Shown here piece after piece: positions 12,201 through 64,000 of a stretch of 64,000 nucleotides of DNA; position 1 is the stretch's first letter; every line of letters starts with the position of its first letter. The stretch is from Labia minor (Eukaryota > Arthropoda > Insecta > Dermaptera > Spongiphoridae). Below the pieces are notes generated by a model that was not told where the DNA came from, did not search any database, and saw only the letters and a program-made list of their open reading frames with translations. The DNA lies in NCBI GenBank assembly GCA_963082975.1, contig OY720344.1, positions 32,027,172 to 32,091,171 of the forward strand, written 5' to 3'. The translations under genes were made by a program, and so were the position numbers.

Positions 12201-12338
12201 CAGTGGGTGATCGATTAACGAACATAATGCGTTCCAAGACTAGGTTCGCTCTCCGAATTGTTGGTTATCGATTTGCCATAGATTTTTATGTAAAATCGAT
12301 TAATTTGTTCTGGAGACCCTAAACATTAAATTAAATAA
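12201..12338 (+). mobile_element. Tigger/pogo-like terminal fragment
   Basis: Begins CAGTGGGTGATCGATTAACG directly after a TA (12199-12200) and continues with GAACATAATGCGTTCC and GTTCGCTCTCCGAATTG. This is the terminal style of Tigger/pogo elements, which insert at TA. The other end is missing, because a HINE-B begins at about 12342. It is a partial non-coding remnant. Confidence 0.55.
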
Positions 12339-12341
12339 GTT

Positions 12342-12842
12342 GGAGTGTCTCCACTCGACTATCTCGCAATCTGAATTGGATTAAATAACATATTTAATAT
12401 TTAAATTAAATTTAATTAATTATAAATTAAAATTAATAAATAATATTTATTAAACCAGCGCATGTTTGGCTCTTTGTTGATGGCACCATGTCAGGTGTGG
12501 GCGCGTGAGATTTGCAGTTAAAAAATTAATTCTGGTACTTTCAGCCATTCTATATATCGAAGTTTTATACAATCTCTAATCATGTATAAAAATATCAAAC
12601 ATATATCTTTATTTTTACGGTCACTTTAGAAGAAAAAAATCAAATCGTTGTAGGTAATGACTCTTCCGGTTTAGCTACATTTCTCAAAAGTTGATAGAAA
12701 CACACACACACAGGCATTTTTCTCAACCTTAGTGAAAATGACTCAGGGACCTTCAAAACGTATAAAAACATCAAAATCTCAACTTCGAAAATTTTCATGA
12801 CCACAATACTATCTCTGGCGAGATAGTAAAAAGGATGTATAT
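12342..12842 (-). mobile_element. HINE/DINE-1-like element, family B, copy 1
   Basis: Element on the minus strand. Its 5' end is at about 12842 and reads TTTTTACTATCTCGCCAGAG; the first bases after TTTTT form a perfect hairpin (ACTATCTC/GAGATAGT, loop GCCA). Near the other end lies the inverted copy GCGAGATAGT (about 12358-12367), followed by the 3' hairpin GAGTG-GAGA-CACTC (about 12344-12357). Asymmetric inverted repeats plus a 3' stem-loop, insertion in a T run and absence of coding fit Helentron-derived non-autonomous elements. A short CACACA tract and a block containing the family-B word CTCAAAAGTTGATAGAAA lie inside. Confidence 0.75.
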
Positions 12843-12941
12843 GTTTTCGGTTAATTTATTTCAAAAAATAAAACATACTTATAATTTTGCACTTTGTTTA
12901 TAAGGCGTTAAAAAATATATCTAACGTCGATTGCTTTTTTC

Positions 12942-13592
12942 TTTTTACCGACCGACGATAGTAAGGGAGGTATTGTTTTCACACCAAATTTCACATGTGG
13001 AGATTTTTACATATCTCCACGAATCATGCATTTTCTTAACAGAAAAAAGTATTTTTAGCATGATGTCTGTCCGTCCGTCCGTATAGATGTGTACAGCTTG
13101 AACGGCTCAACGGATTTTGATGAAATTTGGTATATTTACTTAATGCATCAGTATGATGAATTGATCAACTTTTGGTGCAAATCCGGAAACCGGAAGTGGT
13201 AGTATTAGCGATCGACGATAGGAAGGGAAGGGTTATTTTCACACCAAATTTCACATGAGATTTTTTATATATCTCCACGAATCGTGCACTTTGTATTGGT
13301 TTTAAACTCAGGAAAAATTATTTTCATTAGTTACAGACCGAAGATAGTAAGGAAGGTATTGTTTTTTCGGAATTTAAAATTATATGACATCTCTCCCAGC
13401 TCTTCATGACGTCACAGCCAGCACCTCCTTATATATTATAAATAAAATAAAATTAAAAATATTTATGTTAAATCCATATCCGTTTTTTATTGCATTAATA
13501 GATATATTAAAATTATTAGAAATTGTTTCTGTAGCTGGAAATTAATTTATTTCAAACCGTCGGTCGGTTCTGTGTCTGCACAGATTGACTTA
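12942..13592 (+). mobile_element. HINE/DINE-1-like element, family A, copy 1
   Basis: The 5' end TTTTTACCGACCGACG begins at 12942. The inverted copy CGTCGGTCGGT lies near 13558-13568. A 3' hairpin follows, here TCTGTG-TCTG-CACAGA. It contains a GTCCGTCC microsatellite, the conserved block AACGGCTCAACGGATTTTGA and a block ending AAACCGGAAGTGG. This copy is more diverged than those at 43211 and 48967: its 3' hairpin has a different sequence but the same fold. The CRE region (about 13389-13415) is partly worn, and only one intact GACGTCA is seen. Confidence 0.75.
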
Positions 13593-14972
13593 TTCTTTTT
13601 TTGAAGAATTATGGGTATTATAACGCAGGTATAATAATCCCAAAGATCGATGATTCAGCTCCATTAAAACTTCTGCAATTTTTAAGTATTTTTTTTTGAA
13701 ATAAAAAATTAAATAAAAAAAACACACTTATCGAATATAAAATAGAAGAAAAAAAATAACTATTAGTCTTTTGAAAGTAATTTTTTTCAAATAAAATATA
13801 AATTTATTTATCGAGTTCACTAAGATGACATTTAAAGGGTTAAAATTTCTTTGAAATTTTAGTGGGCATGATTTTGTTATTCAAGAATGAAATTAGAAAT
13901 CATGAATCACAATCCAAGTGTGACGCCATCAACAGCGAATCTAGATTAGTGCTGCCTGCCTGTCTCTCTTTTTTATTTGTCTTCATTCATTTCTTGACGT
14001 TTGACTGGGATTTAATTGATCTGTTCAAATTAATATATTGGAATCAATCAAAATTCTTTAAAATACTAAAAGGGATAAAAAATATATTAAAACAAATAAT
14101 TTTATAAAGTGAAATTAAACTTTAAAAAAATATATATATAAAGCTTGATAAAAATAATTTTTAATGAAAACACTGTAAAGTTAAATTATTTTTTTTCTTT
14201 AATTATTTAAGTTTAATTTTAGTAAGTAATATATATTAAATTTTTTAAACGAATGTCTAAAGTCGTAAATATACTAATTTTTTTTTTCTTTTATTGGTTT
14301 TAGGGATCGATATAGATATTATAGATAAATATAAATACATATATTTATTTTATTCCATCACATTAAATAATAATATAATATTTTAATTTTTTATGAGCTT
14401 TACGTTAATTTTCAAGTTTAATTATTCAGTGTTTTAACACATTAAATTTAATATAGATAGTGTAATTAAAATAGTCAAGGTAAAAATATAATAATATCAT
14501 GTATGCTTATATAACATTAGTTTTTATTGATGCCTGAGGCGCCATGATCAAGAATAATATAATAATAATAATAATATTAGTCAACAAATCGAAAGAACAT
14601 CTAATTTTAATCCGTATCCCGAAACGCAATAGGGCTCTGACATGAAAAACTGGGACACAGTTGGAGGATTTAGCACAAAATCTATCAAACTAAATGAGTG
14701 AGTCAAATAAGAAATGCACAAGCCATTGATCTATTTATAGAATAATATATTTCTATATCTATATATTTCAATATTAATAGAAATACATAGAAACAAGAAA
14801 AATATTTTCCTAAATAAAATTTGAATATTACAGAATTTTTATTTGCTCCGGTCATTGATATTAATTTAAATTGCAAGAATTATTATATATCAATTTTTTT
14901 TAATTAATTAATTCATTTTATTAAGAAAACATCTTCTTTTCTGTTAAGAAAGAGTATGTTAAAATTATAGCA
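13593..14972. other. AT-rich non-coding
   Basis: No gene or shared repeat recognised. An open frame at 13862-14107 is low-complexity and lysine/isoleucine-rich, as expected by chance in this composition. A short ATA/ATT repeat is at about 14550-14577. Confidence 0.4.
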
Positions 14973-15609
14973 GGAGTGTCTTCACTCGACTATCTCGTCA
15001 TTTGAATTGGATTAAATACCATAATATATTATATTTAAATTAATTAAATTAATTAATTAATTATAAATTAAAATTAATAAATAATATTTATTAAACCAGC
15101 GCATGTTTGGTTCTTTGTTGATGGCACCACGTTAGGTGCTGGCGCGTGATTTGCAGTCCTGTTAAAAAATTAATTTTGTACTTCAGCTATTCAATCAAGC
15201 TGAAATTCTATATATCGCAGTTTTATACAATCTCTAATCATGTATAAAAATATCAAACATATATCTTTATTTTTATGGTCACTTTAGAAGAAAAAAAATC
15301 AAAACGTTGTAGGTAATGACCCTCTTTCGGTTGAGCTACATTTCTCAAAAGTTGATAGAAAACTACGAATTTTGAATAATGTCTATGTACCAAATTTCAT
15401 GATTCTAGCTCAAACCGTTTTCGCGTAATCTTTTCTACATACATACACACACAGACACACACACACATATATATAAATATATATATACACACACACAGAG
15501 AAACAGATATTTTTCTCAACCTTAGTGAAAATGATTCAGGAACCTTCAAAACGTCTAAAAACATCAAAATCTCATCATCGAAAATTTTCTCTGGCGAGAT
15601 AGTAAAAAG
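14973..15609 (-). mobile_element. HINE/DINE-1-like element, family B, copy 2
   Basis: Same layout as the copy at 12342: the left side (its 3' end) has GGAGTGTCTTCACTCGACTA, and the right side (its 5' end) has CTCTGGCGAGATAGTAAAAA. It retains a longer interior than copy 1, including a CA/TA microsatellite at about 15438-15500 and the block CCAAATTTCATGATTCTAGC. It is non-coding; the minus-strand frame over 15397-15624 arises from the microsatellite. Confidence 0.8.
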
Positions 15610-16965
15610 GTGTGGAGATAACAAACCTAACTATAATGTTATAAAATGGCTAATAGGAGTTAAATTTATCTACACAAGTTCAGAAGGTATGGGTATATGT
15701 CGTTTATTATGGTACATGGATCTACTGTATGTATTTTTAGAATAATCCTTAATTTTAAAATTTTTAAATTTGATAATTATTGTTTAAATTCAACAATCAA
15801 TTTTGAATTATTTTATTTTTAATAATGAAATCCTACCATTGTTTTTCAAATTAGTAATTTTATAAATATATTTTCATGTTTCAAGAATTAATTTTCTGAT
15901 TTATTTAAAGCCTAATTAATCAAGCTTTAATTTAATACTAAATGCTAATATTTATGATAGACATAAAGATGAAAATACCATTACACAAATGACTGATTAA
16001 TTTTCAGCCTCATCCGGATAAAACTGAATTTAAAATAAATAATAGAATTATCATTTCTTATAAATATGATTTGAATGTAATATGGAATTCGTTAACTGGT
16101 TGGTTGGTGCAGAGTGAAATGAATTATAATAACTCCCGGCAGAGGATCAAAACAGTGAATAAATTACTAGAGAGGCGCTGTATCAATCGTTTGTCTGGAA
16201 TTTCCTGTTTTCTTCAATCCAAAATTGAAAAACAACAACCTAACGTTATCTTAGGAGGAGTTAAAATGGATTGACTATAATTTAATGAATCAAGTTATTG
16301 ATAATACAAATCGACTAACAACATTTAGTTACAACATGGAGAAAAGTTTAAAATGTTAAATGTATTTATAAATGCATCATTATTTATTAAAAACATGAAA
16401 AAAAATTTATTTTCATATCTTGAGAAATTTTCTTTTGAATAAAACATTTAAACGTCTAAACATCTGTTGGTTTTGCAGATTTCTATAATTATTTCATATC
16501 CAAATTTTCATTTTAGTAGAATAAAACAGAATAGAATTCAAACATTTTTACAATTTAAAAATATTTTTTTAACTTACATTTATTATAATTTATTAAACAT
16601 TTTAAATTTTCTCTTTTATGTTATTTTAAAATTCCAAATTAAGTTTCTTTCTCTTTGGATATTCTTGAATTTGGAATTTGAAATTGCATCTCTCTCTCTC
16701 TCTCTCTCTATCTTTCATAAAATAGAACCAGTTCTATTCCATAACTATGCCTATTTATTTATTTTTTTTTTAAATAGAAAATATGAACTTTTTAAAAAAA
16801 TATATATTTCGTTAAAATTAATTATAATTAAATAAATATTTGGTGTACAAATTAATTCATCCAGTTATTTTGTGTTCAAAAATATATTTATATCAAAATA
16901 AATTATGAATATAATCATATTAATTAATTAATTATGAATTAATATGTGTTTATATAAAAAATTCG
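15610..16965. other. AT-rich non-coding with a GC-richer patch
   Basis: About 16075-16270 is less AT-rich and open for 67 codons on the plus strand, without a recognisable domain. A (CT)n run lies at about 16687-16710. The longer plus frame 16467-16835 is hydrophobic low-complexity sequence spanning that microsatellite and is not convincing as a gene. Confidence 0.35.
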
Positions 16966-17568
16966 GGAGTGTCCTCTCCTAGACTTTCCCGCATATAAAT
17001 AGGTAATTAGGTTATTATTATTATGTTTTAACAACAATAAAAATAAACAAACTAATTAATTTAAATTATAAAGTAAAATGGTTTAACACTATTATATATA
17101 TTTATAATTTACACCTAACGCTACTTGTATAGGTAAAATGTCACTTCCGGTAGTTAGATCATGATGAAATTTGTTATCTGAATTTTTTTCATATTTTTAA
17201 ATCTATATAAAAAATAGGAAGCAAATATCTCGAAGCAAACTGGTACTTTACTTGAAAGGTAAACGCAACCAGTGTAGGTAAAGTACCACTTCCGGTTAAC
17301 CGATTTTGACGAAATTTTGATAGAAATCTACAAACTGTGAATAATATCGGTGTACCAAATTTCGAAGTCCTAGCTTGATTAGTTTTTGAGTAAATTTGCT
17401 CACAGACATTACATACATACATACATACACACACACAGACATAATTCGAAAAATGGTATTTTCCGACTCAGGGAGGTCTAAAACGTCAAGATCTATCGAA
17501 ATCTCGAAGTCGAAATTTTTGACGATTCCAATACTTCCCTTATACGAAGTATGCTGGAAAGTAAAAAA
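16966..17568 (-). mobile_element. HINE/DINE-1-like element, family C
   Basis: Single copy on the minus strand. Its 5' end (right side) reads TTTTTTACTTTCCAGCATAC and continues into GGGAAGTATTGGAATC. The inverted copy of the terminus, GGGAAAGT read on the minus strand, lies near 16982-16990, followed by the 3' stem-loop GGAG-AGGACA-CTCC. Inside are an ACAT/CA microsatellite (about 17408-17440), the block AACCGATTTTGACGAAATTT and CTTCCGGTTAACC. It shares the terminal plan and internal motif order with families A and B but little primary sequence otherwise. Confidence 0.65.
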
Positions 17569-24417: not shown

Positions 24418-25030
24418 TCTGCGTGTCTCAAATCGACTATCTCACAAATTTGAATCGGATTAATTAACATATATTGTATTTAAATTAAATTAATTAAATT
24501 ATAAATTAAAATTAATAAATAATATTTATTAAACCAGTACGTGTTTGGCTCCTTGTTGATGACAGACACCAAGTTATGTGTGGCGCGTGTTTGGCCGTCA
24601 ACGTGTTGAAAAATTTAAAAAATTAATTCCGGTAATTTCAATCAAGGTGAAATTCTATATATAGCACTTTTATACAATTTTTAATCGTGTGAAAAAATAT
24701 CAAAGATATATCTTTATTTTTACGGTCAGTTTAGAGGAAATAAGCAAAATTGGATTAAATAACAAATACCCTATTTAAATTAAATTTAATAAATTATAAA
24801 TTATAAATTAAAATTAATAAATAATATTTATTAAACCAGCGCTTGTTCGGATCTTTGTTGTTGGCACCACGACACGTGCTGGCGAGATAGTAAAAAAATG
24901 AAAACCTTGTAGGAAATAGTCCTCTTCCGAATGAGCGTCATTTCTCAAAAATTGATAGAAAACTATGAATTTTCAATAGTGCCTGTGTGCCAAATTTCAC
25001 TATTCTAGCTCAAAACGTTTTTGCGTTTTT
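24418..25030 (-). mobile_element. HINE/DINE-1-like element, family B, copy 3 (5' truncated, internally duplicated)
   Basis: Its 3' side, with GTGTCTCAAATCGACTATCT, starts at about 24422. The family block TATTTATTAAACCAG occurs twice (about 24523 and 24823), and a fragment ending GCTGGCGAGATAGTAAAAA sits in the middle at about 24877-24897. So either a shortened family-B copy is nested in or fused to another, or there has been an internal duplication. The 5' terminus expected beyond 25030 is missing. Confidence 0.65.
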
Positions 25031-25569
25031 TTAGTTTAAAATGTGCTTATTAGCCAAATATATATATAAGTTTTAATATCCCTAAACCCATGTGGGATTC
25101 AATTTATACAATATGTACAATTTATAACAAAATTGTGCAATAAAGCACATTCGTTTTTAAGCTGAGATGTTACAATAAATGTATATAAAAATGAAATTTT
25201 TACATTGTTTCAATTGCATTCATAAATAAAATTTATTTTACAGCTAATGATATACTATATTAAATTTATTCAGAAAAAGGCATAGAGAAAAAAAAACCTG
25301 AAAATAATAGTTACAATAAAAAATTTTAAATTATTTACAATTTGATTTATATATTTTTTGTAATACCAACTAACAATACTCTTTGTTCTGGTTTAGGTCT
25401 TTGTCCCTATTTGACATTTCCAGAGTATACCTTCACAGCCTTTAAGGTCCTTTCCATCAAGGTAGTGATCATAAATTATTCTTTTGTCATTATTCTTCCG
25501 AAAAACATGGAAAATTATTGGGATGTTATTGCTAATCTGTAAATAACCATTTGCATCCAGATAAGGGAA

Positions 25570-27535: not shown

Positions 27536-27547
27536 GTATGAATTGTT

Positions 27548-27700
27548 GAATGAAAACGTTTTTGCGTAATCTTGTCTACATACACATACACATGGCATTT
27601 TTCAACCTTAGTGAAAATGACTAAGGGTCCTTCAAAACGTGTAAAAACATCAAAATTTTGACATTGAAAATTTTGAAACTATTTTACGAGATGGTAAAAA
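27548..27700 (-). mobile_element. HINE family B, 5'-end fragment
   Basis: Matches the 5' third of family B: AAACGTTTTTGCGTAATCTT, a CA-rich tract, TCAACCTTAGTGAAAATGAC, and a worn terminus ACGAGATGGTAAAAA at 27700. The 3' part is absent. Confidence 0.65.
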
Positions 27701-38407: not shown

Positions 38408-38535
38408 TCAGGGGTGTCTAAACTATGACCATTCGAGGGCCACATTGCAAAAAAATGGCCAGACACAGAACCGACCGACGGTTTGAAATAAATTAATTTC
38501 CAGCTACAGAAACAATTTCAAATGATTTTAATGTA
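38408..38535 (-). mobile_element. hAT-like end joined to a HINE-A 3' fragment
   Basis: CAGGGGTGTCTAAACTATGA followed by CGAGGGCCACATTGC is hAT-terminus-like (about 38409-38450). From about 38463, CAGACACAG then AACCGACCGACGGTTTGAAA is the 3' end of HINE family A on the minus strand, running about 70 bp before similarity stops. The flanking 38870-38950 copy shows the same sequence in full. Confidence 0.5.
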
Positions 38536-38623
38536 TCTACATATAATTATAGAACATATAATTTTTATATTCTGCTTTAATTACTTTAATAAACATCAGA
38601 ATAATACATTCTATATTATTATA

Positions 38624-39954
38624 CACCAACACCTCGCGTTTCGTCGTTTCGTTTTGCTTTTTTCGAAGTTGCGTCGCTGCTTAATTAGTAATAATATTCA
38701 CTGTGCGTCGTTAGATTTTGGAGATTTCGTTGTTTTGTCTTTAATTTTTTTATTTTTATTTTTTTTTTTAATTCTTTGAAATTTTCTTATTTCTCTCTGG
38801 AAAGATATCCCAGAATGTACATCAAGGTGGAAAATTAAATGGAATCTTAAGTGAATAAGTTGACCTGTGGCCAGGTCCGAACCGACCGACGGTTTGAAAT
38901 AAATTAATTTCCAGCTACAGAAACAATTTCAAATAATTTTAATATATCTATTAATGTAATAAAAAACAGATATGAATATAACATAAATATTTTTAATTTT
39001 ATTTTATTTATAATATATATGTAAGACCAGGCTGTGACGTCATGAATGGCTGGATGACGTCATATAATTTTAAATCAAGAAAAAACTAATAAATATGATT
39101 TTTCTCGAGGATAAAACCAATACAAAGTGCATGATTCGTGGTGATATATAAAAAAATCTCCTTTGGTGTGAAAATAACCCTTTCCTTCCTATCGTCGATC
39201 GCTAATACTACCACTTCCGGTTTCCGGAATTGCACCAAAAGTTGATCAATTCATCCCACTGATGCATTAAGTAAATATACCAAATTTCATCAAAATCGGT
39301 TGAGCCGTTCAGACTGTACACATCTATACGGACGGACGGACAGACGGACGGACAGACATCATGCTAAAAATACTTTTTTCTGTTTAGAAAATGCATGATT
39401 CGTGGAGATATGTAAAAATCTCCACATGTGAAATTTGGTGTGAAAACAATACCTCCCTTACTATCGTCGGTCGGTAAAAATTAAATACAATACAATACAA
39501 AATAATATTCTAAAAATTTGTTTTCTACTGAGATCATCGCAAATTTTGTAAATTGTGATTTTAATTTTATTTATTTATTATTATTTTTATTTTATTTATT
39601 AATTTTAATTTATTTTTAAATAGATATTAAATATATATTGAATTGAACCAATTTTTTGTGAAAAAAGCCGACTTAGAATAGCCACTATGAACTCATCAGA
39701 CAGTGATTAATTTCAATTATGTTTTTCATAAATTAATTGAATAGTTTATTTTGTTTTTAGTATGAATGTAATAAAATTTTATAAATGTTTACTTTGTTCA
39801 ATTTTCTTTTTAAAAAGTAGTATTTGCGTAACCCTGGAACCTATCTTCAATCTTTACATGGTTTGCTATATAAAATCTTAATTCATTTTGCGTAGTTTCA
39901 ATTTGCGTCGTGTTTAATTGGAACGTAACCCCCACGCAAAGTGAGGTATTGGTG
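38624..39954. mobile_element. Pogo-like MITE split by a HINE-A insertion
   Basis: Outer ends are inverted: CACCAACACCTCGCGTTTCG on the left and CACCAATACCTCACTTTGCG read inward from the right. TA flanks are at 38622-38623 and 39955-39956. The ACCTCG-type terminus and TA target fit Tigger/pogo non-autonomous elements. The host element is about 0.7 kb once the family-A HINE (38856-39480) is discounted. No transposase coding. Confidence 0.65.
38856..39480 (-). mobile_element. HINE/DINE-1-like element, family A, copy 2
   Basis: Complete on the minus strand: TTTTTACCGACCGACG at 39480 running down, a GTCC/GTCT microsatellite, the block AACGGCTCAACCGATTTTGA, paired TGACGTCA sites at about 39037-39063, the inverted subterminal CGTCGGTCGGT, and the 3' hairpin GACCTG-GCCA-CAGGTC at about 38861-38877. 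Inserted in the pogo-like MITE. Confidence 0.8.
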
Positions 39955-43210: not shown

Positions 43211-43835
43211 TTTTTACCAACCGACGATAGTAAGGGAGGTATTGTTTTCATACCAAATTTCACATGTGGAGATTTTTACATCTCCACGAATCATGCATTT
43301 TCTTAACAGAAAAAAGTATTTTTAGCATGATGTCTGTCCGTCTGTCCGTCCGTATAGATGTGTACAGCCTGAACGGCTTAACCGATTGTGATGAAATTTG
43401 GTATATTTACTTAATGTATCAGTGGGATGAATTGATCAACTTTTGGTGCAAATCTGGAAACCGGAAGTGGTAGTATTAGCGATCGACGTTAGGAAGGGAA
43501 GGGTTATTTTCACACCAAATTTCACATAAGGAGATTTTTTTATATATCACCACGAATCATACACTTTGTATTGGTTTTATATTCGAGAAAGATCATATTT
43601 ATTAGTTTTTTCTTGATTTAAAATTATATGACGTCATCCAGCCATTCATGACGTCACAGCCTGGTCTTACATATATATTATAAATAAAATAAAATTAAAA
43701 ATATTTATGTTATATTCATATCTGTTTTTTATTACATTAATAGATATATTAAAATTATTTGAAATTGTTTCTGTAGCTGGAAATTAATTTTTCAAACCGT
43801 CGGTCGGTTCGGACCTGGCCACAGGTCAACTTATT
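43211..43835 (+). mobile_element. HINE/DINE-1-like element, family A, copy 3
   Basis: TTTTTACCAACCGACGATAG at the 5' end (one change from the family ACCGACCGACG), and CGTCGGTCGGT plus the hairpin GACCTG-GCCA-CAGGTC at the 3' end. Paired TGACGTCA octamers lie at about 43630-43656. Highly similar to the copies at 38856 and 48967. The small frame 43264-43473 is not a gene. Confidence 0.85.
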
Positions 43836-48910: not shown

Positions 48911-49994
48911 CGAGGGTGGGGTGAAAAGTTTCCGGCCTGACCAAGAAAAATGATGTTTTTAAATTCTTTTTACCGACCGACGATAGTAAGGGAGGTATTG
49001 TTTTCACACCAAATTTCACATGTGGAGATTTTTACATATCTCCACGAATCATGCATTTTCTAAACAGAAAAAAGTATTTTTAGCATGATGTCTGTCCGTC
49101 CGTCTGTCTGTCCGTCTGTCCGTCCGTATAGATGTGTACAGCCTGAACGGCTCAACCGATTTTGATGAAATTTGGTATATTTACTTAATGCCTCAGTGGG
49201 ATGAATTGATCAACTTTTGGTGCAAATCCGGAAACCGGAAGTGGTAGTATTAGCGATCGACGTTAGGAAGGGAAGGGTTATTTTCACACCAAATTTCACA
49301 TGAGGAGATTTTTTTATATATCGCCACGAATCATGCACTTTGTATTGGTTTTATCCTCGAGAAAAATCATATTTATTAGTTTTTTCTTGATTTAAAATTA
49401 TATGACGTCATCCAGCCATTCATGACGTCACAGCCTGGTCTTACATATATATTATAAATAAAATAAAATTAAAAATGTTTATATTTATTATTTATGTATT
49501 CATATCTGTTTTTTATTACATTAATAGATATATTAAAATTATTTGAAATTGTTTCTGTAGCTAGAAATTAATTTACTTCAAACCGTCGGTCGGTTCGGAC
49601 CTGGCCACAGGTCAACTTATTTTACTTTATTTTTCAACATTCAAGATAGGTGAGACCTGTACGATGTCAGCTGAACGTGTGCGAAATATTTTGCACAACC
49701 ATTTGAATATGGAAAGCTGTGTGCAACGTGGGTGCCGCGTTTGCTAACGTTAGACCAAAAACTGCTTCGAAAAACCATTTCTACCGTCAATTTGGCGCTG
49801 TAGGCGCAGTAATTCATAACTGTTGATGAGACTTAAATTAAATTAAATAATTAATTAAATTAAATAAATTAATTAGAAGACCGTTATGAGAAATATATCA
49901 GTGTTGATGGAGATTATGTTGAAAAATATAACAAAAAAAAATTTAAAAACATCGTTTTTCTTGGTCAGGCCGGAAACTTATCACCCCACCCTCG
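48911..49994 (+). mobile_element. Mariner element with about 55-bp inverted repeats, split by a HINE-A
   Basis: Ends CGAGGGTGGGGTGA match over about 55 bp with two mismatches, continuing through AGTTTCCGGCCTGACCAAG. TA is at 48909-48910 on the left; the right flank is AA. Without the HINE (48967-49621) the element is about 430 bp. Coding scraps: SAERVRNILHNHLNM (mariner DNA-binding region) at about 49665-49710, FITVDET (first catalytic Asp) near 49810-49831, and ISVDGDYVEK (C-terminus) at about 49898-49928. A large block between the last two is replaced by simple AT repeats. Not functional. Confidence 0.85.
48967..49621 (+). mobile_element. HINE/DINE-1-like element, family A, copy 4
   Basis: Complete copy inserted within the left inverted repeat of the mariner at 48911. 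5' TTTTTACCGACCGACG; extended GTCC/GTCT microsatellite (about 49090-49130); the block GCCTGAACGGCTCAACCGAT; paired TGACGTCA at about 49404-49430; subterminal CGTCGGTCGGT and hairpin GACCTG-GCCA-CAGGTC ending at about 49612. It lies in a T-rich site, as do the other copies. Confidence 0.9.
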
Positions 49995-52678: not shown

Positions 52679-52771
52679 ATATTATGTAATTCCAAGTGCC
52701 ATAATAGAAATTCTTGATCAAATAATTAAAACTTTTTTCATTATGAAAAAATTTTAAAAATCAAAATAAGC

Positions 52772-53362
52772 TGGAGTGTCTCCACTCGACTATCTCGCAA
52801 ATTTGAATTGGATTAGTGAACATATATTATATTTAAATTAAATTAAATTAATTAAATTATAAATCAAAATTAATCAATAATATTTAATAAAACAGCGCGT
52901 GCTTGACTATTTCTTGATGGCACCAAGTCTCGTGCTGGCGCGTGATTTGCAATGTTAAAAAATTAATTCCGGTACTTTCAGCTGAATAGCTGATTGAATA
53001 ATCAAGCTGAAATTCTATATATAGCAGTTTTATACAATTTTTAATCAAGTGACAAACTATCAAAAATATATCTTTATTTTTACATTCAGTTTAGAAGAAA
53101 AATAATGAAAACGTGGTAGTTAATGGTCCTCTTCCGAATGAGCTACATTTCTAAAAATTTGATAGAAAACTACAAATTTCGAATAATGACAGTGCACCAA
53201 ATTCCATTATTCTAGCTCAATTCGTTTTTGCGTAATCTTGACTACATACACACACAGAGACATTTTTCTCAACCTTAGTGAAAATGACTCAGGGACCCCC
53301 AAAACGTAAAAAAACATCGAAATCTCGACATCGAAAATTTTCGTGATCGCAATATTATCTCT
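52772..53362 (-). mobile_element. HINE/DINE-1-like element, family B, copy 4
   Basis: Starts right after the KRBA2-like remnant with GGAGTGTCTCCACTCGACTA (its 3' hairpin and subterminal repeat) and carries the whole family interior. The 5' terminus is eroded: ATTATCTCTAAAAAG stands where CTATCTCTGGCGAGATAGT would be. Confidence 0.8.
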
Positions 53363-53878
53363 AAAAAGTATGTTATTATTATTATTTGTTTAATTTACAT
53401 CGTATTTTGGTGGTGAAAAACTAGGACGAAAATTGTATTTATGAATATTTGGATCATAACCTACGACGTACATGATATTTCTATTTATTTATTTATTTAT
53501 TTTTTAAATTTTAAATGATAAAAACGTCTTTGATAAATAATGGCATTAATTCATGGTAAACAAAATTATTTACATTTTTTTTAGTCATATATATATATAT
53601 ATATATTCAAAGATTAAGGGAGGAAGTATGTCTGTTATGAATGAATTGAGGCCATTTTGAATGGTTGGGGTGAACGTTCTCTCCTCCCCGTGGGCGACAA
53701 GCCCCACCATTCATGTTGCCGCCCTAGTCAAAACATTTGTAGCCCACTCCCTAATTTATTGTATCCTCGTAGATCTCTTCGCAAATTTAAACGCATCATT
53801 TTAAAATCCTCCTTTTTTTATTTAGAAATATCTATTAATTAGTTTAGATTAAAATAAATGCTTAATTTATATTGGTTT
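53363..53878. other. AT-rich; GC-richer island at 53640-53790
   Basis: The island is open for 61 codons on the plus strand but lacks recognisable features. A TA microsatellite is at about 53589-53608. Confidence 0.3.
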
Positions 53879-59956: not shown

Positions 59957-61569
59957 TGTTACTATCTTTTTAGAAATAGTATTGAGATCACTAAAATTAT
60001 CGATGTTACGTTTAGAAGGCTCCTGAGTCATTTTCACTATGGTTGAAAAAAATGTCTCTGTGGGTGTATGTGTGTATGTATACAAGATTACACAAAAACG
60101 GTTTGAGCTAGAATAATGAAATTTGGTATCTATCTATCTATCTCTGTGGCTCTACGGAACTCGGAAGTTCTTGGCCACAGCAACCATACTAATTCTGGGC
60201 CACAACCCTCCAATCCCTATCCTCTCCCATCTCTCACGTCCCTTCCTATATTATCCACCCACCGCGTCCTTGGTCTTCCAAGTGGACGTTTCCCACTCGG
60301 TCTCCCCCCAATATATTTTTCGCTATTCTTTCCTCCCCCATTCTAGCCACGTGTCCTGCCCACCGCAGCCTTCTCGATTTTATAATTCTAACCATATCTG
60401 GAGATGGGAGGAAAGGTCTTGCAATTCCTCGTTATGCAGTCTCCATCCTTCCCCGGTGACCTCATCTTTCTTTGGCCCATAAATACTTCGCAGAATCCTA
60501 TTCTCAAATACTCTAAATCTATTCTCGTCACCTAAGGTCATAGACCATGCCTCACATCCATATAATACAACCGGTAAATATATTTATTTATATATTTTAA
60601 CTTTAATCCCCTTTGGTAATAATTTTGACGCGATAAGCCCCTTTACGGCATGATAACAGGCGCTTCCCGATTGTAACCTCGCTTTAAACTCTTCCCGAAT
60701 ATTATTATCTTTCGTTATTACGGAACTTAAGTATTTAAATTTTTCTACATTTTCAAATTCTATATTTTGTATGTTAAGACTTTATGTGTTAATACTATTC
60801 CTCTCTGTTACTAAATACTTTGTCTTAGCAATATTTATTTCCAGCCCCACCTCTTTTCCTGCTTCGATTAATTTTTTTACGCTATCTTTAATTACAATTG
60901 CCGAATCTCCTATTATATTTAAGTCGTCTGCATAACCTAATACTTGAATTTTTTTGTTTAATTCTATTCCGTTTAATTTTTCCCCAATTTGTCTAATTAC
61001 ATATTCCAGAACTAAATTAAATAGAATTGGTGATAATGCGTCTCCTTGTTTTAACCCATTCCGAAATTTGAAATTTTCTGATAGTTGATTCCCGCATCTT
61101 ACTCTTCCTTTACTACCTACAAGACAAATTTGAATCATAAGTACTAAAATTTGGTATACGGGCACTATTCCCAATTCGTAGTTTTCTATCAAATTTTGAG
61201 AAATGTAGCTCATTCGGAAGAGGGCCATTACCTACCACGTTTTCATTATTTTTCTTCCAAACTGACCGTAAAAATAAAGATAGTTTTTCATATTATTAAT
61301 AATTGTATAACACTGCTATATATAGAATTTCAGCTTGATTGAATCGCTAAAAGTACCTGAATTAATTTTTTAAATTTTGACTTTAAAATTAAGGTAGAGG
61401 TTTTAAATTTAAATTTAATATATGATAAGTAATTAATTTCATTGGATAACAATACTATACCCTAAATTTAAATTTTATAATTAATTAATTAATCTAATTA
61501 TACTTGATTTATATTTTAATATAATATATGTTAATTAATTCAATTCAAATTTGCGAGATAATCGAGATT
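59957..61569 (+). mobile_element. HINE/DINE-1-like element, family B, copy 5, split by a LINE
   Basis: The only family-B copy here on the plus strand. Its 5' terminus near 59957 reads TTACTATCTTTTTAGAAATA (worn hairpin), then GTATTG. The microsatellite GTGTATGTGTGTATG and GGTTTGAGCTAGAATAATGA run up to the LINE at 60130. After the LINE it resumes at 61147 with ATTTGGTATACGG and continues through TTTCTATCAAATTTTGAGAA to TTGCGAGATAATCGAG at about 61569. Confidence 0.8.
60130..61146 (-). mobile_element. RTE-like LINE inserted in HINE-B, with 11-bp TSD
   Basis: A 1017-bp 5'-truncated LINE flanked by AAATTTGGTAT (60119-60129 and 61147-61157). It holds the best RT remnant of the family. Within the minus frame ending at 60782, NGLKQGDALSPILFNLVLE is the RT finger/palm block, LGYADDLNIIG holds the catalytic YADD box, and GLEINIAKTKYLV follows. 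Further 3' the frame is broken, but the tail matches the copy at 55747. The first 27 or so codons of the apparent 148-codon frame (61147-61228) come from the HINE, not from the LINE. The 3' end is the TATC repeat at 60128-60142. Confidence 0.9.
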
Positions 61570-63329: not shown

Positions 63330-63854
63330 TTTTTTGAAATTTACACTAGATATAGTATTTATAAAGAAAAATTAAGTTTTATTGATCACATCTCTAGAAA
63401 AATACATCTTCATTAGTTTTTTCTTAATTTAAATTTATATATGGATGAGGACACTATGTCATCCATATTAAAATTTGACTCCCGCCTTTTTTTAAAGGAT
63501 ATTGTATTAATATTTTTTTTATATTTAAAATATTTTAAAATTTTTTTATTTAATTTCGAAATAAAATTAAAAATATATATTTTAATAATATTTTATAGTT
63601 ATAAATTACGATATATATTTATCATTCTTCCAATAAAAAAAATATTCATGCAATTAGAAACATACCTAATAATACATATTCATTTTAATCAGATTGATGC
63701 AATGATGCAACATTTAATAATTGTAATAAATAATTAAAGAATTGTATATCAGCTCGGTGTCCCAAGTATTAATATTACCAGCCAAACCCAATAATAATGA
63801 ATTATTTTTTTTTTAACTTAATTACCGAGCCGAGGCTCGGGGTCCCGGTACTAG
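63330..63854 (+). mobile_element. Helitron-like 3' terminus within a partial tandem repeat
   Basis: ACCGAGCCGAGGCTCGG (about 63824-63840) forms a 7-bp hairpin. Ten bases later comes CTAG (63851-63854) followed by T, the layout of a Helitron end, but with a sequence unlike the 2961/9590 family. The segment TTTGAAATTTACACTAGATA and about 70 following bases occurs at about 63351 and again at about 63867, immediately beyond the terminus, giving a tandem offset of about 520 bp. Confidence 0.45.
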
Positions 63855-64000
63855 TTATTTTTGAAATTTACACTAGATATAGTATTTATAAAGAAAAATT
63901 AAGTTTTATTGATCACATCTCTGGAAAAATATTAAGTTTTATTGATCACATACTTTTATATTTTTTTATCTTAGATGTCCTATGATGATATAAATTAAAC

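Follow-up and report, generated by a model that had tools for sequence, protein, structure and literature searches.

Helentrons are rolling-circle transposons with a Rep/helicase protein, and HINEs are their gene-less derivatives. We analysed a 64,000-nt stretch of the Labia minor genome (C1:32027172-32091171; hereafter the window) and find that three families of short elements in it, A, B and C, are very probably HINEs. All three share one terminal plan and a two-part 5′ signature, TTTTTAC..GTATTG, and an earlier note on this DNA had already assigned them to HINEs from the letters of the window. That identity is now supported by the same ends in copies across the genome, by the lack of any target-site duplication seen and by a Helentron-type element that carries the ends of family B. 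The families, which had been described as unrelated-looking, prove to be relatives: most of the sequence of B aligns with C, and a core is common to all three. A HINE family together with a probable autonomous Helentron with matching ends makes the cis signals needed by a Helentron testable, and the shared core and common ends around family-specific stems supply the frame for such tests.

Ends, hairpins and insertion sites

Read from 5′ to 3′, the elements consist of TTTTTAC, a 13-nt subterminal inverted repeat (subTIR) that starts at AC, GTATTG, a block, a microsatellite, the core of about 100 nt, a variable, AT-rich stretch, the inverted subTIR, the 3′ hairpin and a short tail. The single internal order that the earlier note had proposed for all families, microsatellite and then core, is found in A, B and C, with a microsatellite of CTGT/CCGT in A and of TG and TATG in B and C. 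The two subTIRs agree at 11–12 of 13 nt in all seven window copies tested, a level that none of 2000 shuffles equalled for A1, B1 or C (the three tested), and their spacing is asymmetric: 5 nt from the 5′ end and roughly 25–30 nt from the 3′ end, with the hairpin beyond. Family A also carries partial copies of its own 5′ end further inside (two in A1). The A copies, B1 and C contain no stop-to-stop frame of at least 120 amino acids (aa); B2 and B5 overlap with frames of 121 and 129 aa, which extend beyond the elements. The canonical Helitron features (5′ TC, 3′ CTRR and insertion between A and T) are absent, the ends being TTTTTAC and RCTWATT.

With a spacer of 8–32 nt, TTTTTAC..GTATTG occurs six times in the window, and all six matches are element starts (Table 1); 100 shuffles gave a mean of 0.25 matches and a maximum of 2. 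TTTTTAC by itself occurs 61 times against a shuffle mean of 47, barely above chance, as 3 of 100 shuffles reach that count, and the signal therefore resides in the two-part signature. A combined scan for TTTTTAC, a 9-nt inverted subTIR and a hairpin returned five matches (A1, A2, A4, B1 and B2) and none in 60 shuffles, and the proposal that the three families share one terminal plan and one 5′ signature thus stands. Across the genome (604,477,936 bases), the pattern TTTTTACN{10,30}GTATTG has 60,361 matches (30,238 forward and 30,123 reverse), against 1,821 (939 and 882) for the reversed pattern. The first 100 matches listed, all from the start of contig C1 and no random sample, comprise 48 A, 28 B-like, 3 C, 18 inner sites of A and 3 others. 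A first look for family A gave 4,131 candidates genome-wide, 40 of which were scored. At about 100 signature matches per Mb, the elements are a major shaper of the Labia minor genome. One signature match outside all three families, TTTTTACAAAAATCGTCCGGGATCCCGGTATTG at C1:752674-752706, may represent a further HINE family or may be due to chance.

Hairpins were judged from DNA folds compared with 200 shuffles. At the 5′ end, family B has a strong hairpin, in which the subTIR pairs with the arm that ends in GTATTG to form a 9-bp stem, TACTATCTC/GAGATAGTA, that includes TAC/GTA (none of the 200 shuffles is as stable). A 5′ hairpin in family A is unsupported by the fold (z −0.19), and TACC/GGTA is all that remains of it; in C the pairing TACTTTCC/GGGAAGTA lies, by eye, in the register of B, and the predicted fold is another. 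The 5′ hairpin closing into AGTATTG that had been proposed for B and, imperfectly, for C is thus retained for B and not for C. At the 3′ end, family A has TCTGTG(TCTG)CACAGA in A1 (1 of 200 shuffles as stable) and GACCTG(GCCA)CAGGTC in A2, A3 and A4 (0 of 200). On energy alone, the 3′ folds of B and of the window copy of C are weak (14 and 8 of 200 as stable, respectively), and a C copy at another locus (L004) has a perfect GGGAG..CTCCC hairpin.

The termini drawn from the window recur genome-wide: copies elsewhere have the same 5′ termini, subTIRs and hairpins. Loci L003–L059, picked by similarity to A or by the signature itself, supplied 43 different element starts (A, B or C) followed by 750 nt or more, with the window's own locus excluded. 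An inverted subTIR (at least 11 of 13 nt) lies downstream in 30 of the 43, together with a hairpin (at least 5 bp) in 23 and without it in 7; the other 13 have neither, and two of the 23 complete-looking starts are inner matches. A listing of the elements passing the subTIR and hairpin test, 28 rows less four repeats and two inner matches, gives 15 A, 6 B and 1 C, with the window's own A1 and B1 among them. The second type of A hairpin (GACCTG..CAGGTC) is present in 14 of these 15 A elements, A1 being the exception. Beyond the hairpin, AACTTATT follows in 18 of 19 distinct A occurrences and RCTWATT in 10 of 11 B occurrences (repeats removed), and three of the four AACTTATTT strings in the window lie exactly at the A or B 3′ end position, 8–9 nt past the hairpin. 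These conserved tails place the ends of A and B 8–9 nt past the hairpin, at RCTWATT. Of the inverted subterminal copy and 3′ stem-loop described in the earlier note, the copy and the A hairpins hold, the B and C hairpins are weak by energy, and the 3′ terminus had been set too short.

Insertion in T runs, also proposed beforehand, is borne out by nested insertions for which unfilled sites are at hand. Two head-on insertions of A into A occurred at TAC-TTTTTT-CTG, yielding TTTTT-[AC...CTTA]-TTT and TTTTT-[AC...CTTA]-TT, the latter having one more A ahead of the Ts; 11 A copies show the site unfilled, seven of them with T6. B3 holds a nested 159-nt B derivative at a T-rich site, and B1, B2, B4 and B5 have this site unfilled. 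The earlier note had named consistent target-site duplications as evidence of a cut-and-paste superfamily; none was seen in the nested insertions or in the flanks of seven copies, where the 5′ and 3′ flanks of the same copy match at 3.0 nt versus 3.1 nt for flanks of different copies.

The core and the kinship of the families

Families B and C are alignable along most of their length, and the cores of B2 and C are identical at 86 of 121 ungapped positions. The core of A4 matches those of B2 (47 of 74) and C (30 of 38) in the same register; each of these matches lies beyond 300 shuffles, and the A4/B4 comparison was no better than shuffles. A profile built from the B2, B3, B4 and C cores recovers all four A cores (E 0.006–0.018), ranked right after the B and C pieces. 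The shared core thus makes the three families diverged relatives, at least in that part. Folding gives no overall support for the core as a conserved hairpin: z is −1.05 in A and −0.33 in C, and in B it is −2.48, a stability equalled by 1 of 200 shuffles. Against a putative segment of the DINE-1 core it scored 17.8 bits, largely from the microsatellite, which makes homology between the two cores no more than a lead.

In the HINEs the core adjoins the 5′ end, as it does in the long element described below, and it is therefore probably inherited 5′ regulatory or binding sequence. Selection for enzyme binding, as opposed to simple shared ancestry of the 5′ regions, is in our view the less likely reason for its being common to the families. 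In favour of selection, the core is the best-matching block between A and B/C, ungapped over 38–74 nt (the B–C block spans 121 nt), and a function for the DINE-1 core was proposed on similar grounds by Yang and Barbash (PMC2374699). Set against this, mite HINEs lack both the inverted repeat (IR) and the core (PMC4067079), the nested B derivative at 24738–24896 has both outer ends and no core, and the core of B1 is also partly missing. The derivative's loss of GTATTG, core and 3′ hairpin, the first two of which the earlier note had suggested as what the replication enzyme may read, may postdate its insertion. A broader idea, which we regard as unlikely, is that TTTTTAC, GTATTG, the core of about 100 nt and RCTWATT form one recognition code in which the intervening subTIR and hairpin stems are interchangeable. 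If it were true, one Helentron enzyme could mobilise A, B and C, and the core would be a genuine cis-acting site conserved across insect orders and present also beside the 5′ end of a Rep-bearing element.

A candidate autonomous Helentron for family B

A search of the genome with PF14214 gave 104 matches. In the 30 loci taken with it, Rep motif 2 reads RGLPH (Helitron type) in 16 and RGSPH in 4 (L085–L088), and was not seen in 10, seven of which were searched on one strand only; the S of RGSPH is a Helentron mark (Thomas et al., PMC4067079). A candidate partner of family B lies at C1:47862607-47874782 on the minus strand, with termini 12,176 bp apart. Its Rep match (C1:47868109-47868492) falls within an open frame of 2,181 aa, and its Rep motif 2 is YERVEFQMRGSPHEH (RGSPHEH), the Helentron type with S in RGSPHxH. 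Upstream of the frame lies the B 5′ region, with TTTTTACTATCTCGCCAGAGATAGTATTG, GTATTG, the microsatellite and the core, extending to about B position 418 and partly duplicated; downstream lie just the last 44–47 nt of B, with the subTIR, the hairpin and AGCTAATT. Taken together, the two pieces complement each other as portions of a single B element, and family B is therefore best read as an internal-deletion derivative of this 12.2-kb Helentron-type element.

Several observations weigh against the reading of the families as HINEs with such a partner. The candidate partner is one copy read at both ends, less about 5.7 kb of its middle, and its frame is assigned as a Helentron from Rep (the PF14214 match and motif 2). 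The autonomous Helentron with shared ends that the earlier note had looked to is at hand for B, and none was found for A or C: beyond the C1 element, the Helentron-type loci viewed were L091 and the upstream side of C1:85855789 (L096), neither with TTTTTAC..GTATTG. One of the four RGSPH loci, L091 has DUF6570, Rep and PIF1 in a 1,785-aa frame, with no endonuclease family listed at E 0.01 and no A, B or C end found in its surroundings. Among the genome copies, the 13 of 43 starts with no matching 3′ end, through decay or truncation, count on the same side. So do changes in the B 5′ stem genome-wide, where single-arm changes that keep a G-U pair (259, left arm) are as frequent as those that break the pair (256, right arm), and double changes are rare (15). 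The canonical stem, found at 14 of the 100 first-listed places, scales to about 8,450 of 60,361, from which 8 double changes are expected against the 15 seen. This excess is weak and makes no case for constraint; the changes resemble neutral decay once copies have inserted, and not constraint on them. Finally, the C1 element contains an A 5′ fragment without a 3′ end and is therefore not a clean element. The junction of this fragment recurs at C1:55785732, with a Rep match 3.3 kb downstream (C1:55789425), and at C5:80763951, and 12 further places match the Helentron side of the junction only, from query position 110–115. At one of these 12 (L098, of which 500 bases were read) there is no A sequence at the junction, and the A fragment is thus probably a later arrival.

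The arrangement in C1 might have come about by chance, with a 3′-truncated B HINE upstream and a separate 5′-truncated B end downstream of an unrelated Helentron, and there are facts that lend themselves to this: the genome is very rich in B HINEs, a fair share of B copies lack 3′ ends, a truncated A fragment lies in the same element, and comparison with a second copy took in part of the region. We nevertheless consider it very improbable, as the two B pieces are complementary (nt 11–418 and 467–510 of the B query), have the same orientation and stand either side of a Helentron-type frame with their outer ends intact, and as the further locus at C1:55785732 has the same inner junction near a Rep match. 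Less credible still is that the families are miniature inverted-repeat transposable elements of a cut-and-paste superfamily with short terminal inverted repeats. Short, gene-less and AT-rich as they are, with inverted repeats near both ends, they resemble such elements in outline; the repeats are asymmetric, however (5 nt versus about 25–30 nt from the ends), a hairpin lies beyond the 3′ one, no target-site duplication was seen, and the B ends bound a Helentron-type Rep frame. We therefore keep to the reading of A, B and C as HINEs.

Other Rep-bearing regions came to light in the same search. At L091/L092 (C9:34492700-34507500), the Rep/PIF1 frame is bracketed by inverted repeats of 16–17 nt, CAGTGGCGCAACCAGG, which are separated by about 11.1 kb and each have TTAATTA on the outer side, and homology to a second locus (L094) ends at the downstream repeat. 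The repeat may resemble a tRNA 3′ end. At C5:46739897-46792979, five Rep fragments with identical scores are spaced at about 5.7–9.8 kb, with two more nearby, which suggests a tandem array.

A proposed mechanism, known relatives and the contents of the window

A transposition cycle can be sketched from the HINE papers and from the Helitron Helraiser, in which the left end is essential and the 3′ hairpin is a terminator that can be bypassed (PMC4778049). Rep would nick at the 5′ end between TTTTT and AC and displace one strand; displacement would stop at the 3′ subTIR and hairpin, with a cut after RCTWA beside a T, and the single strand would then insert between Ts of a new site. By its sequence, the B 5′ subTIR has two possible pairing partners, the GTATTG arm and the 3′ subTIR, and this alternative pairing may act as an initiation–termination switch.

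Parts of the plan are already in print for DINE-1 (PMC2374699), HINE-Mo (PMC4067079), Cg_HINE (PMC7492417) and Hel-2 (PMC4344730); four sequence strings had no literature match in searches made without the host name. DINE-1/INE-1 of Drosophila (Yang and Barbash 2008, PMC2374699) shares with the present families 13-nt subTIRs, a partial inverted repeat beside the 5′ subTIR, a microsatellite of (CCGT)n(CTGT)n type, a core that is conserved from species to species, a stem-loop past the 3′ subTIR, insertion at TT and the lack of reading frames, whereas its subTIRs are of the ATACCC/TATACC/TACCCT type and those of Labia minor read ACC.. or ACT.. after TTTTT. In the HINE-Mo/Helentron-Mo pair of a mite and the Culex and Drosophila pairs (Thomas et al. 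2014, PMC4067079), as here, HINEs are Helentron deletion derivatives with the same ends, with terminal T runs, no target-site duplication and the RGSPH Rep signature, and insertion in T runs without duplication is the Helentron habit of that account. The subTIRs of mite HINE-Mo, in contrast, are palindromic.

Cg_HINE of the Pacific oyster (Vojvoda Zeljko et al. 2020, PMC7492417) likewise comprises several families in a single genome, with a 5′ subTIR and complementary IR, a microsatellite (several of the GTCY type), a 3′ subTIR, a palindrome and oligo-T targets. It differs in its satellite-like central repeats and in that no autonomous partner could be tied to it, whereas a probable partner is at hand for family B. 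Hel-2 of Lepidoptera (Coates 2015, PMC4344730) has a 5′ IR, subterminal repeats, a (CTGT)n microsatellite and a 3′ hairpin, as do the present elements, yet is described with canonical Helitron TC/CTRR termini and A/T flanks.

Viral contigs gave no match for the exact A and B 5′ ends, an A-core 20-mer, the degenerate B/C core or a DINE-like microsatellite pattern; neither this collection nor that of genome contigs holds animal genomes as such, so these zeros say little. The one match of the degenerate core in genome contigs, in a metagenome-assembled genome of Flavobacteriaceae (L001), was judged to be chance: some 23–28 nt agree there, and the other L001 matches are short or AT-rich.

The window copies are collected in Table 1. 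B and C copies lie on the minus strand, B5 excepted, and most B copies are damaged; B6 had been overlooked in the earlier note.

Table 1 Copies of families A, B and C in the window, with signature starts and cores (each on the strand of its element)
Element	Family	Position	Strand	Signature start	Core	Features
A1	A	12942..13594	+	12942	13120..13201	start TTTTTACC, subTIR ACCGACCGACG, GGTATTG, CTGT/CCGT microsatellite, core, inverted subTIR, hairpin TCTGTG(TCTG)CACAGA, end GACTTATT
A2	A	38854..39480	-	39480	39209-39308	hairpin GACCTG(GCCA)CAGGTC, end AACTTATT
A3	A	43211..43835	+	43211	43372-43472	
A4	A	48967..49621	+	48967	49147-49246	
A1-type 3′-end fragment	A	38460..38539	-			about 410 bp past A2 end
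B1	B	12334..12832	-	12832		ends complete, TTTTTACTATCTCGCCAGAGATAGTATTG ... GCGAGATAGTCGAGTGGAGACACTCCAACTTATT; core partly deleted
B2	B	14963..15608	-		15290..15433	full core; small deletion removed 5′ arm and GTATTG
B3	B	24418..25026	-		24890-25032	5′-truncated, carries nested B derivative
Nested B derivative, 159 nt	B	24738..24896	-			TTTTTACTATCTCGCC ... GCTTATTT; without GTATTG, microsatellite, core, 3′ subTIR, hairpin
B4	B	52765..53368	-		53097-53241	5′ tip degraded; end AGCTTATT
B5	B	59957..61566	+			split by retroelement; 3′ hairpin lost
B6	B	about 27541..27700	-			5′ fragment
C	C	16956..17567	-	17567	17256-17399	TTTTTACTTTCCAGCATAC..GGGAAGTATTG ... TATGCGGGAAAGTCTAGGAGAGGACACTCC

The A1-type fragment past A2 has a left hairpin arm of the other type and could mark either a second insertion that was truncated or bypass of the terminator. 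The retroelement in B5 (about 60129–61146) is a non-LTR-type (long terminal repeat) fragment with a PF00078 reverse transcriptase match in the frame 60782–61231; it sits within the core motif GAAATTTGGTA, and the 11-bp repeat AAATTTGGTAT flanks it on both sides.

The window has about 26% GC and contains retroelement fragments, and a scan of it found no tRNA genes. A QSRGSLH string was rejected as Rep, as by eye it lies inside a transposase-like relic. At 63331–63404 and 63858–63931, a 74-nt direct repeat recurs with 99% identity, 527 nt apart.

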